Shown here: in pieces, positions 25,588 to 33,206 of the stretch
Layout: each line of letters starts with the position of its first letter
Position numbering within the stretch: the first letter of the stretch is position 1
IMG/VR virus record: IMGVR_UViG_3300048930_000108
Coordinates: 1-39,523 of that record
Reading direction: 5' to 3' (one strand)
Length of the DNA: 39,523 nt
Origin: a virus
Translations under genes and position numbers: made by a program
The notes under the pieces: generated by a model
The model's database searches: none
The model's input: the letters and a program-made list of their open reading frames with translations, nothing else
Told to the model about the DNA's origin: nothing

Positions 25588-26963
25588 TGGGATACGCTGA
25601 GTTTCTAGAAAACAAGCGGACCGTTGATCCTCGAACTGGCATCGAAAATCCGGGGGCAATGCCATCTGTAATGCTTGCTCATCAATCTGACATAACGTCA
25701 TGGGCATTGCGGAGGGGAAGGGCGGCGGTTTTTGCGGGAACAGGCCTTGGTAAAACGCTTATCGAGATAGCATGGGCCGATCGCGTGGCGCGACACACGA
25801 ATAAGCCTGTGCTGATTTACGCTCCGCTCGCAGTCGCGGCTCAGCATGTTCGTGAGGCGGAAAAATTCGGCATGGAATGCAAGATGGTTCGGCGGCATGC
25901 CGATTTGACGGTAGGCGTCAATGTTGCGAACTACGCCAAGATGGATCATTTTGACCATTCTGAGCTAGGCGGAATCGCGCTCGATGAGAGCAGCATTCTA
26001 AAACATCATGATGGAAAGACGCGCGGCAGGCTGATTGAAGAATGTGCGCAAATTCCATTCCGACTTGCCGCCACCGCCACGCCGGCCCCTAACGATTTTA
26101 TGGAGCTTGGAAACCACGCCGAATTTCTAGGCGTCATGTCGTTTACTGACATGCTGTCAATGTTTTTCGTTCATGACGGCGGAGAGACGCAAAAATGGCG
26201 TCTTAAAGGACACGCAGAGGATGCGTTTTGGAAGTGGATGTGCTCATGGTCCGTCATGCTGAGATCGCCGTCCGATCTTGGGTATCCAAACGACGGATAT
26301 GATTTGCCTCCGTTAATCCGACATCAGCATACGGTTGAATCCGAGCCCGAGTTCGGAAGCATGTTTTCGTCTGTAGCTGGATCGCTGCAAGAGCGCATAT
26401 CGGCACGCAGAGATACGGTTGCGGAAAGAGTTGATTTGGCGGCGAAGGTGACAGGTGAGTTACCGGACGACGAGCCGATCATGTGGTGGGCAAATTTGAA
26501 CGCAGAGGCTGATGCGCTCTGCCGAGAAATCGACGGGGCCGTGCAGGTAACTGGGTCGGAAAGGGACGAGGCGAAGGAAGAAAAAATCCTCGACTTCCTG
26601 AACGGCAAGATCAAGAGATTTGTGTCCAAGGGATCGATCATGGGATATGGATTGAACTTCCAGCATTGCGCACACACAGGCCTTGTCGGATTGAACGACA
26701 GCTTCGAGCAAACTTACCAGATCATCAGGAGGTTCTGGCGTTTCGGACAGATGAGAGACGTGCATGCCCATTTCATCGCATCGGAAAGAGAGGGCGCTGT
26801 TGTAGCAAATCTGGCGCGTAAGGAAGCTGATGCCGACAGAATGGCGGCGGCGATGGTTAGGCACATGTCCGACATATCGTCTATCGACGTTCGTGGCGCG
26901 AAACGAGACAGGCCAGACTACAATCCGCAAATGAATATGATAATTCCGGGAGCAGTACTATGA
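25587..26963 (+). CDS. SNF2-like SF2 helicase/ATPase
   Basis: A 458-residue protein; ATG 25587 overlaps the clamp stop. Motif I G-T-G-L-G-K-T at 51-57, motif II D-E-S-S at 133-136 (in place of DEAH), A-T-A-T-P-A-P-N-D as motif III near 158-166, and a C-terminal Q-T-Y-Q-I-I-R-R-F-W-R-F-G-Q segment (motif VI). This is an SNF2/helicase type that occurs directly before DNA methylases in phages. The gene and its partner are clearly AT-rich (40-52% GC in sampled lines against 60%), suggesting recent transfer. It may remodel DNA-protein complexes or act with the methylase in a modification function. Confidence 0.75.
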   Translation: MGYAEFLENKRTVDPRTGIENPGAMPSVMLAHQSDITSWALRRGRAAVFAGTGLGKTLIEIAWADRVARHTNKPVLIYAPLAVAAQHVREAEKFGMECKMVRRHADLTVGVNVANYAKMDHFDHSELGGIALDESSILKHHDGKTRGRLIEECAQIPFRLAATATPAPNDFMELGNHAEFLGVMSFTDMLSMFFVHDGGETQKWRLKGHAEDAFWKWMCSWSVMLRSPSDLGYPNDGYDLPPLIRHQHTVESEPEFGSMFSSVAGSLQERISARRDTVAERVDLAAKVTGELPDDEPIMWWANLNAEADALCREIDGAVQVTGSERDEAKEEKILDFLNGKIKRFVSKGSIMGYGLNFQHCAHTGLVGLNDSFEQTYQIIRRFWRFGQMRDVHAHFIASEREGAVVANLARKEADADRMAAAMVRHMSDISSIDVRGAKRDRPDYNPQMNMIIPGAVL

Positions 26964-27946
26964 ATAGGGTGGAGAATGCCATTTCAGAAATCAAGGTTTT
27001 CGATCAGGATGTGAATGACAGGTATGCCATTTATCACGGAGATGCATGCGAGATTATCCGCGCCGTTCCGGGCGATAGCGTTGACTTCGGCGTTCACAGC
27101 CCGCCGTTCGAGGGGCTCTATAAATTCAGCAACTCAGATCGCGACATATCGAACAACGAAGGCGATGATTTTTATGAGCATTACGGATTCTTGATCGCAG
27201 AGCTTTTCCGCGTGACAAAGCCAGGACGGCTGCATTCGGTGCATTGCATGCAGCTTCCGACGAGCAAAACCCGAGATGGGTTTATCGGAATGAGAGATTT
27301 TAGAGGCGAGATCATCCGGTCATATATTGCGGCTGGATGGATTTTTCACTCCGAGGTCTGCATCTGGAAAGATCCCGTAGTGGCCCAGCAGCGCACGAAA
27401 TCAATCCGACTGCTACATGCACAAATCGTCAAAGACAGCACGATTAGCGGACAGGGATTGGCGGATTACGTCGTTACGTTCCGCAAGCCGGGAGACAATG
27501 GGGAGGCTGTCTCCGGTGGCTTTGATCGATACATAGGCGAGCCGGAAGACGAGCCTGACAGGTCGAAATACACGATGCCAATGGACAACCGAAACTGGTA
27601 TTCCATCGAGATTTGGCAGCGATATGCATCGCCCGTATGGACAGATATACGGCAGACTAGAACGTTGCAATATAGATCGGCGCGAGATGAAAAGGACGAA
27701 CAACATATTTCGCCACTCCAACTCGATGTGATCGAAAGATGCATCGATTTGTGGAGCAATCCCGGAGACGTGGTTTTAACGCCATTCATGGGGATCGGCA
27801 GCGAGGTATTTTGTGCTGTTGAAATGGGTCGATACGGCGTCGGTTTTGAACTGAAGCCGTCCTATTTCGCGCAGGCAAAAAAGAACGTGGCAGAGGCAAG
27901 TCCCGTGAAGCCAATCGACATGATGAACATCGGAGAAAAAATCTAA
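26960..27946 (+). CDS. DNA methyltransferase, N4/N6 beta-class arrangement
   Basis: A 328-residue protein overlapping the helicase by ATGA. The catalytic motif IV S-P-P-F is at 47-50 and the SAM-binding motif (T-P-F-M-G-I-G) near 274-280, with H-I-S-P-L-Q at 249-254 in the place of H-P-x-Q-K. This IV-before-I order defines beta-class amino methyltransferases; S-P-P-F/Y is common in N4-cytosine enzymes, but N6-adenine cannot be excluded. It probably protects phage DNA or alters its recognition. It shares the low GC of the helicase before it. The SSB gene starts in its stop (TAATG). Confidence 0.8.
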
Positions 27947-31084: not shown

Positions 31085-31447
31085 ATGTCAAGCTTGATGG
31101 CCATCGTCTGCGGCGGCCGAGATTATGACAACGCGGATCGCGTCAAACTCATCCTCGATGCGGCGGTTGAGCGGCTTGGCTTGCATACGATCATTGAGGG
31201 CGGATCGCGCGGTGCGGATACGCTGGCAAGAGAATGGGCCGTGGCGCGCGGAGACGTGTCGTGGATAGAGGTGCCGGCCAATTGGGAGATCGGAGCCAAG
31301 GCCGGACCGGCGCGCAATCAGATGATGCTGGCAATCTTATTGCGCGAGGAAGGCAATAAGGCCGTTATCGCGTTTCCGGGTGGCGCCGGCACGGCGCATA
31401 TGTGCAGGATAGCCGAGAAGGCTGGGATAAGGACCATACGATCATGA
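31085..31447 (+). CDS. SLOG-family (DUF2493-like) Rossmann protein
   Basis: A 120-residue protein with M-A-I-V-C-G-G-R-D-Y at 5-14, E-G-G-S-R-G-A-D-T-L-A near 38-48, the G-P-A-R-N-Q motif at about 73-78 and F-P-G-G-A-G-T-A-H at the C-terminal region: the nucleotide-binding motifs of the SLOG/YspA (DUF2493) fold. SLOG proteins bind nucleotide-derived ligands and often act in signalling or defence. It begins a two-gene rightward operon with a leaderless predicted mRNA. Ligand unknown. Confidence 0.75.
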   Translation: MSSLMAIVCGGRDYDNADRVKLILDAAVERLGLHTIIEGGSRGADTLAREWAVARGDVSWIEVPANWEIGAKAGPARNQMMLAILLREEGNKAVIAFPGGAGTAHMCRIAEKAGIRTIRS

Positions 31448-31827
31448 GCGAAAACCCGAACAACCTGGTCAAGCAAATCCTACTCGCGGCGCCGAAATAT
31501 GGTGCGCGGCTGTTCCGGCGCAACACAGGCGTGGCGTGGACCGGCAACAAGATCACCAAGAACGCGGACGGCTCGATTACCATTCACGATCCGCGCCCGT
31601 TTCAGGCAGGCGTCAAGGGGCAGTCGGATGCGTATGGTTGGGTGACAGTCACGGTGACGCCGGACATGGTTGGCGAGCGCGTGGCCGTGCATGTCGAGGC
31701 TGAGGCGAAAACGGGGTCGGGGCGCTTGACGCCGGAGCAGTCGTCGTGGTTGGACACGGTGCAAAAAGCAGGAGGCCGCGCGGGGGTTGTGCGCGGCCCT
31801 GGGGATTTGCGGACGATTTTGGGTTAG
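31444..31827 (+). CDS. VRR-NUC nuclease
   Basis: A 127-residue protein starting at ATG 31444 by overlap. R-L-F-R-R-N-T-G-V-A-W near 23-33, G-Q-S-D-A-Y-G-W near 58-65, then E-A-E-A-K-T-G-S-G-R-L-T-P-E-Q-S at about 86-101 and a final G-G-R-A-G-V-V-R. The D/E-x-K pattern plus Q is characteristic of the VRR-NUC branch of the PD-(D/E)XK fold. It may resolve or cut branched DNA. Its last four bases overlap the convergent 31824-32084 gene. Confidence 0.8.
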   Translation: MSENPNNLVKQILLAAPKYGARLFRRNTGVAWTGNKITKNADGSITIHDPRPFQAGVKGQSDAYGWVTVTVTPDMVGERVAVHVEAEAKTGSGRLTPEQSSWLDTVQKAGGRAGVVRGPGDLRTILG

Positions 31828-32111: not shown

Positions 32112-32139
32112 AACATAATGATTATGCGCATGGTGTCAA
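32112..32139 (-). promoter_or_regulatory. Predicted promoter for the 31824-32084 gene
   Basis: Reverse strand TTGACA (32134-32139), 16 bp, TATGTT (32112-32117). The -35 lies within the last codons of the methyltransferase. The spacer contains the odd palindrome CATAATGATTATG on the plus strand, a possible operator. Confidence 0.5.
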
Positions 32140-33206
32140 GCGGGTTTGAGAGATAATTCGTATTCGAGGATGGCGCGGCCGATTAGTTCTGGGATTTGGG
32201 GGACTACGGCGTTTCCGAGCCCTTTAAGTCGGTCCACCCTATTGGGAACCCCATGAGCCACTCGACCCACGGCGGGTTCAACTGCCCACTGTCCGTCGCC
32301 ATAACCGCATGATCCAGTCGATCGTTCGCGCGCGACTTCCCGGATTTTCTCGTCAAGGATGCTGGCGAACTGCCCTTGCTCGTGGACTGGGCTGGCGTTG
32401 GCCGGTATCGCTGCCTCTTGCTCTCCGCCGCCCGACTGGTCATCGCCTTGTATTCTTCGTAATTGTCCAGTTTTTCCGCCAGCATTTTTAGCTCGCCGTC
32501 CGACCGATACCCGATTGTGTTTGGCGTTGGCCACATACGAACCTCCGTTCCCAGCCCAAGATTGTGCTTTCCCCGTATTCCTGTACGATCCAAGGCGTGC
32601 GCCCATGCGTCTGAGCTTGTTGGGGCGGGCCACGTTATCTGCTTGGTAAAATCTCTCGGTGGCCTCCCGTTCGATCGCATCGCCGTCGCCTTCGTATTCG
32701 ACGCTTCTGGGGTAGGCAACAATCCATACCCTGTCCCTGCCGTGCGGGGCACCGACAAACCAAGCTGGAATACAGTGCCACTCCGCATCATACCCGATCT
32801 CGGCCAGCGACCCGAGAACGGCGTCAAGCCCCCGAACAAGGAGGGCTGAGACGTTCTCCACGATGACGTATCGGGGTCGAATTTCGCCAATAAGTCGGGC
32901 GAACTCGAACCATAGTCCAGATCGTTCGCCAGCGAGGCCAGCCCCTTTGCCGGCCGTCGATATGTCCTGGCACGGGAACCCGCCGCAGATGGCGTCCACC
33001 CGTATTCCGTCCAATTCAAGCTGACTTGCCGACAATCCTCTGATGTCGCCATATTGTGGCACCTCCGGCCAGTGTTTCTTCAAAACCTTGCGGCAAAACG
33101 GTTCGATCTCGCAAAACGCAACCGTCTCAAATGCGCCGGAACGCTCCAGGCCCAGCGAGAACCCGCCTATACCAGAAAATAGATCGAGCAGCTTCAATTT
33201 TTCCAT
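32136..33206 (-). CDS. C5-cytosine DNA methyltransferase (Dcm-type)
   Basis: A 356-residue protein. Motif I D-L-F-S-G-I-G-G-F at about 8-16, F-C-E-I-E-P (motif II), motif IV G-G-F-P-C-Q-D-I at about 73-80 with the catalytic Cys, E-N-V (motif VI), G-A-P-H-G-R-D-R-V-W-I (motif VIII), and a C-terminal G-L-G-N-A-V-V-P-Q (motif IX/X). The target-recognition region is the variable stretch around 165-300. It likely modifies phage DNA at cytosine C5. A second ORF (32204-33052) runs in another frame through most of it. Starts in the stop of the prim-pol gene. Confidence 0.9.
   Translation of the reverse strand: MEKLKLLDLFSGIGGFSLGLERSGAFETVAFCEIEPFCRKVLKKHWPEVPQYGDIRGLSASQLELDGIRVDAICGGFPCQDISTAGKGAGLAGERSGLWFEFARLIGEIRPRYVIVENVSALLVRGLDAVLGSLAEIGYDAEWHCIPAWFVGAPHGRDRVWIVAYPRSVEYEGDGDAIEREATERFYQADNVARPNKLRRMGARLGSYRNTGKAQSWAGNGGSYVANAKHNRVSVGRRAKNAGGKTGQLRRIQGDDQSGGGEQEAAIPANASPVHEQGQFASILDEKIREVARERSTGSCGYGDGQWAVEPAVGRVAHGVPNRVDRLKGLGNAVVPQIPELIGRAILEYELSLKPA
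32204..33052 (-). CDS. Overlapping-frame protein inside the C5 methyltransferase gene
   Basis: A 282-residue open frame, +1 relative to the methyltransferase. Its ATG at 33052 follows GGAGG (33062-33066) by nine bases. The content is not random: W-P-R-S-G-M-M-R-S-G-T-V-F near residue 86, L-L-P-T-P-E-A, W-P-A-P-T-S-S-D-A and M-W-P-T-P-N-T-I (recurring W-P-T-P-like units), and an end W-V-E-W-L-M-G-F-P-I-G-W-T-D-L. I recall these patterns from annotated phage proteins. Both frames could be conserved translations of one DNA. Whether the protein is made, or the pattern is forced by the methyltransferase, is not known. Confidence 0.45.
   Translation of the reverse strand: MATSEDCRQVSLNWTEYGWTPSAAGSRARTYRRPAKGLASLANDLDYGSSSPDLLAKFDPDTSSWRTSQPSLFGGLTPFSGRWPRSGMMRSGTVFQLGLSVPRTAGTGYGLLPTPEASNTKATAMRSNGRPPRDFTKQITWPAPTSSDAWAHALDRTGIRGKHNLGLGTEVRMWPTPNTIGYRSDGELKMLAEKLDNYEEYKAMTSRAAESKRQRYRPTPAQSTSKGSSPASLTRKSGKSRANDRLDHAVMATDSGQLNPPWVEWLMGFPIGWTDLKGSETP

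Follow-up and report, generated by a model that had tools for sequence, protein, structure and literature searches.

The window analysed here, a whole IMG/VR virus record of 39.5 kb with tail, terminase and replication genes, contains a C5 cytosine methyltransferase gene through which a second long open reading frame runs in the +1 frame. This raises the question of whether both frames are used as protein and, if so, what the second protein does. We find that selection has maintained the overlap in related genes of phages and prophages, which number in the hundreds, and that one enzyme is very probably divided between the frames, its catalytic half coming from frame 0 and its DNA-recognising half from the +1 frame.

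Organisation of the locus

The frame-0 product, alpha (32136–33206, minus strand, as are all features of this locus given below), is a C5 cytosine methyltransferase of 356 residues carrying motifs I–VIII and X, which matches PF00145 (E=1.6e-44) and aligns with M.HhaI over residues 4–168. Specifically, motif I (DLFSGIGGF, 33159–33185) and motif VIII (RDRVWIV, 32718–32738) are read from the sequence and placed by the M.HhaI alignment, the motif IV PCQ with catalytic Cys79 (32967–32975) is invariant in homologue alignment A3, and motif X (GLGNAVVPQI, 32193–32222) contains the beta stop codon. The AlphaFold model is confident over motifs I–VIII and X, with a confident helix after motif X, and its best fold match is M.HhaI. 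Alpha therefore has what defines the PF00145 large domain, namely motifs I, IV (PCQ), VI (ENV) and VIII and the fold. It does not qualify as a single-chain enzyme with a target-recognition domain (TRD) and a canonical motif IX, because the selected recognition region and motif IX lie in the +1 frame. Opposite that region, alpha residues 192–275 (32382–32633) are predicted to form a disordered linker (pLDDT < 50).

The nested +1 product, beta (32204–33052), comprises 282 residues plus a stop, starts with ATG and matches phrog_1008 (E=1.2e-29). A Shine-Dalgarno (SD) sequence, GGAGGTG (33060–33066), lies 7 nt upstream of its ATG. Beta is composed of an N-terminal module A (GSSSPDLLAKFDPDTSSWRTSQ..WPRSGMMRSG..GLLPTP, 32702–32911; consensus of 76 homologues) opposite alpha motifs V–VIII, a variable region with P-T-P units (32288–32701) that is likely the target-recognition region, and a motif IX (LNPPWVEWLMGFPIGWTDL, 32225–32281) with near-invariant columns. 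Our results bear out what a sequence-only reading had described at this locus: a 282-codon ORF with an ATG start inside the methyltransferase gene, GGAGG nine bases before that ATG (33062–33066, which becomes a 7-nt gap when counted as GGAGGTG), P-T-P repeats (LLPTP, MWPTP and RPTP) and WLMGFP in the +1 frame, and GLGNAVVP in frame 0. Searches of Pfam, NCBIfam and the PDB returned nothing for window beta, its AlphaFold model is of low confidence (pLDDT 62), and a scan of viral contigs with the beta of phage Samy gave no match.

None of the proteins scanned around the locus was recognised as a restriction endonuclease. The window encodes a second DNA methyltransferase, of N6/N4 type, at 26960–27946 (plus strand; PF01555, E=1.1e-17), and the reading frames adjoining the C5 methyltransferase on the opposite strand (31085–31447 and 31402–31827, plus strand) give a protein of the SLOG family (YspA) and a VRR-NUC nuclease match that is weak and falls short of the Pfam cut-off.

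Stop codons are depleted in the +1 frame across the family

For the window gene, none of 5000 synonym shuffles, which keep protein and codon usage, yields an open +1 run of at least 282 codons, and 3.4% of stricter shuffles, which also preserve codon-junction dinucleotides, reach one (P=0.03), so that the evidence from this single gene is only moderate. The family-wide evidence for +1 coding is decisive. In a first set, made up of the window gene and 80 homologues (81 genes, non-redundant), there are 68 +1 stops, compared with 405±14 in synonym shuffles and 178±6 in junction-preserving ones, whereas the +2 control frame shows no depletion (909 stops against 877 expected). Nearly all of these genes were fetched via the frame-0 protein and were thus mostly not picked for their +1 frame; neither this set nor the substitution test described below was built on +1 stops.

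In line with this, the depletion in 165–166 non-redundant nested loci, a larger set that is biased in being partly fetched via the +1 frame and defined by a motif in that frame, has sharp edges, beginning between codons 51 and 70 and ending with WLMGFP. From residue 60 to motif VIII there are 22 +1 stops (383 in synonym shuffles, 115 in the stricter shuffle), from motif VIII to IX 2 (164 in synonym shuffles) and in motif IX 1 (40 in shuffles), and 3' of WLMGFP there are 282 against 225 in shuffles. The +1 frame is fully open from codon 62 through WLMGFP in 152 of 165 loci, and 55 of 166 have an SD-preceded +1 ATG near codons 44–67, where 20±4 are expected. Depletion against synonym-shuffled controls, which the sequence-only reading had put forward as a check, is thus present in both sets. 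Just outside beta, the first ten codons of the nested loci carry a +1 stop excess (144 against 107), as does the region 3' of beta, partly because shuffling spreads codons that are avoided inside the overlap; perhaps this excess is also a real barrier.

Could the open +1 frame be a by-product of codon bias and conservation of the frame-0 protein? The strict-shuffle result for the window gene alone would allow it, and the +1 similarity between distant families is reproduced by synonym-shuffled genes. However, shuffles that keep protein and codon usage still predict many stops, the +2 frame shows none of the depletion, unrelated single-chain C5 genes also lack it, and substitution periodicity tracks the +1 frame. 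Chance openness or codon bias is accordingly rejected, and we give this explanation practically no credence. The resemblance of both readings to known phage proteins, offered earlier as an argument for dual coding, is weak by itself, since synonym-shuffled genes give equal between-family similarity.

The selected frame switches along the gene

In 46 disjoint pairs of close homologues, substitutions were counted where local identity is at least 0.8 and expressed as rates at frame-0 codon positions 1/2/3. Over residues 1–50 the rates are 0.049/0.025/0.226, and from residue 55 to motif VIII they are 0.083/0.029/0.160. In the recognition region they become 0.220/0.054/0.028 and in WLMGFP 0.130/0.035/0.030, before returning to 0.047/0.019/0.174 3' of the end of beta. 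These position-specific rates indicate that the recognition region and WLMGFP evolve as a +1 protein and the flanks as a frame-0 protein, and the selected frame therefore runs from 0 (motifs I–VIII) to +1 (recognition region and WLMGFP) and back to 0 (motif X). The pattern is unchanged without the identity filter, and the recognition region shows +1 selection in 20 of 20 pairs (local identity 0.8). Additionally, the sharing of synonymous codons at conserved residues is about as expected over residues 1–50 and after residue 341 and up to 3 times higher in between, including the stretch from residue 55 to motif VIII that covers module A.

Per-frame constraint across diverged homologues, the other check put forward earlier, is thus found by both substitution periodicity and synonymous constraint. 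The proposal that the gene is dual-coding if both frames are selected holds in that both are, but unevenly: frame 0 dominates over motifs I–VIII and X, and the +1 frame over the recognition region and motif IX.

The WLMGFP motif is motif IX, found in three gene layouts

The domain plan of C5 enzymes assigns most motifs to a large domain, and motif IX and the variable region to a small one (PMC3404938). Among the fetched loci, which are counted as loci and include some copies of one contig, 229 are nested, with a WLMGFP-type motif in the +1 frame and motif X in frame 0; 22 are staggered, with motifs IX and X both in +1 and a frame-0 ORF that ends after motif VIII; and 21 are fused, with both motifs in frame 0. 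A further 58 loci are unclassed, one motif pattern being missing or the frames odd. In staggered loci (Paraburkholderia adhaesiva L224 and actinophages Samy, Euratis, Krili and Artemis2UCLA), the +1 ORF carries the remainder including motif X, and in fused enzymes, of which Tweety gp72 is one, this remainder continues in frame.

The C-terminal profile of fused enzymes falls in the right place on M.HhaI 274–309 (motifs IX–X), in an alignment that is not significant alone, and a profile alignment matches the WLMGFP motif of the window family to the motif IX of fused enzymes at 98% probability. In L332, GLNPNWVEWLMGFPVGWT stands immediately 5' of SLGNAVVP in the same frame. From the positions in fused and staggered relatives, the profile alignment and this adjacency, we identify WLMGFP as C5 motif IX.

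L332 (1992–2978) is itself of the fused form, with motifs IX and X adjacent in that order in frame 0 and traces of the beta reading surviving in +1, and is a possible snapshot of re-fusion. Because its motif IX is joined to the frame-0 middle region, the middle region of alpha may have a recognition role in some loci. The nested type also occurs in E. coli prophages (L334 1200–1961 and L335 1200–1937), where RefSeq annotates alpha alone; in L334 a stop interrupts alpha, which is marked as a pseudogene, and another interrupts beta.

A probable two-subunit methyltransferase encoded in overlapping frames

Taken together, we consider it highly likely that the two overlapping frames of the locus specify the subunits of a two-chain C5 cytosine DNA methyltransferase. 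Alpha would provide the large catalytic domain with motifs I–VIII and X, the latter tethered by the disordered linker, and beta, from its own start at 33052, would provide the small DNA-reading domain, composed of the target-recognition region and motif IX, behind its N-terminal module. Once expressed, the two chains would assemble into one active methyltransferase that may methylate the phage DNA, probably against host restriction. Sister loci have the C-terminal half solely in a +1 ORF, and there is precedent both for C5 enzymes that naturally consist of two chains and for complementation between fragments (PMC3404938; PMC3439449).

The same halves could be joined in one chain by programmed ribosomal frameshifting, which would fuse the N-terminal half read in frame 0 with the recognition region read in +1 and make one or two versions of the enzyme. 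Staggered loci, which carry motifs I–VIII and IX–X in different frames with a long overlap, are in line with such a mechanism, as are the fused homologues, which indicate that a single-chain arrangement works. However, +1 selection starts from about codon 55, 5' of motif VIII, where the +1 reading would be of no use to a transframe chain, and SD-preceded ATGs are enriched in that upstream stretch; nested loci would moreover require a second shift back to frame 0 for motif X. Frameshifting is therefore very unlikely in our estimation.

Alternatively, beta may be an overprinted protein unrelated to the methyltransferase, for instance an anti-restriction or regulatory one, as the lack of Pfam, NCBIfam and PDB matches for window beta would permit and as the selection of a nested +1 ORF over motifs IV–VIII in single-chain enzymes that do not need motif IX from +1 would favour. 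Against this, the C-terminal part of beta supplies a motif IX that is otherwise absent from most such loci, and in fused relatives it occurs in frame with motifs I–VIII and X. We regard an unrelated function of the whole protein as unlikely; such a role could still apply to module A alone. Beta is most readily understood as a component of the methyltransferase itself, and the two-subunit reading is the one we carry forward.

A nested ORF in other phage C5 families

Single-chain enzymes of streptococcal phages, one of which is annotated RCRGC in SpSL1, carry, overlapping motifs IV–VIII, a +1 ORF some 140 codons long (codons ~45–180; L252 1598–2017 and L336–L414), without the recognition region. 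This ORF matches phrog_16143 from its first residue and has 9 stops against 262±12 in shuffles, with sharp depletion edges near codons 45 and 180. Third-position rates drop within it from ~0.2 to ~0.06–0.13, and +1 periodicity appears at its end. Because they have this nested ORF of their own, these enzymes failed as the intended negative control. In the replacement controls, chosen after the fact (HhaI-like, Rho11sI-like, RB43 and CcrMagneto genes), no +1 depletion is found in the C5 genes of PhiSepi-HH3, phiSP119-3, RB43 and CcrMagneto (28 stops observed and 25.9 expected, summed).

A selected +1 ORF in single-chain enzymes, without the recognition region, suggests that module A of beta may be a nested protein of greater age, with a role of its own that lies outside the two-subunit model. 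Sequence similarity is unusable for homology of module A between families, as shuffled genes score equally on the profile. We tentatively propose, as a scenario we hold somewhat short of even chances, that the +1 ORF over motifs IV–VIII is an old, separately functional small protein in several phage C5 families, including single-chain ones, and that two-chain enzymes, the window's among them, originated through an indel downstream of motif VIII whose frameshift brought the recognition region and motif IX into that ORF, which was already translated. If so, the loss of a reading frame created a subunit rather than killing the enzyme.

The nested layout is also seen in a second C5 family (L206 1815–2777; L417, from phage epsilon15; L422–L501), in which +1 stops number 10 against ~134 expected over deciles 2–9, the middle of the gene. 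Here motif LNPEHSRWLMGLP lies in +1 and motif X in frame 0, and the substitutions show the same frame switch as in the window family.

Implications

Long nested genes that clearly bear the mark of selection, and in which both products would act in one enzyme, are rare, and this one can be tested directly. Many phage and prophage "Dcm" genes would thus be annotated with half of the product missing, target specificity should be looked for in the unannotated frame, and cloned "orphan" enzymes of the two-frame type may seem inactive only because beta was recoded away. The nested, staggered and fused layouts form a natural series for the gain and loss of an overlapping subunit.

Comparison with known systems

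Within the literature searched, which was mostly non-subscription, we found no description of the nested arrangement in phages, of how widely phages carry it, of the frame switch or of a nested ORF in single-chain enzymes. An out-of-frame protein within a phage C5 methyltransferase gene is known from the ShiLan-domain hidden HNH endonuclease (PMC11855218). That HNH protein is read in the third frame and belongs to a homing element that has inserted there, whereas the window ORF runs across motifs of the methyltransferase itself and shows no match to HNH. The same nested ORF is annotated within the methyltransferase gene of Paenibacillus phage Diva as DIVA_50, "g49 internal gene", a record that calls it hypothetical and proposes no function. 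Actinophage "DNA methylase" pairs (Samy gp49/gp50, Euratis 33/34, Artemis2UCLA 90/89 and ArV1 067a/067b) resemble the window in having the N-terminal half in one frame and the C-terminal half, a phrog_1008 member, in +1. They differ in being staggered: frame 0 closes after motif VIII, and motif X falls in the second ORF.

M.AquI and other split C5 enzymes consist of two mutually complementing chains (PMC3404938). In M.AquI, motifs IX and X lie together on the small chain, as they do only in the staggered relatives here, whereas motif X of the window stays on alpha. In M.EcoHK31I, the large chain carries motifs I–VIII and X, to which the TRD is also assigned, and the small chain carries motif IX (PMC3404938). 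The window likewise has motifs I–VIII and X on one chain and motif IX on the other, and since motif IX lies on the small subunit of M.EcoHK31I (YGGCCR; relative M.EaeI), this kind of enzyme is already known. A small chain nested in the large one in another frame, as in the window, is reportedly also a property of M.EcoHK31I, an observation ascribed to Lee, Kam and Shaw in 1995, and that small chain is said to be 176 residues long. Unlike in M.EcoHK31I, the recognition region of the window is selected in the nested chain, of 282 residues, rather than placed on the large one. Furthermore, M.EcoHK31I is a bacterial restriction-modification enzyme and the window gene is viral, and the two are likened by description rather than by sequence.
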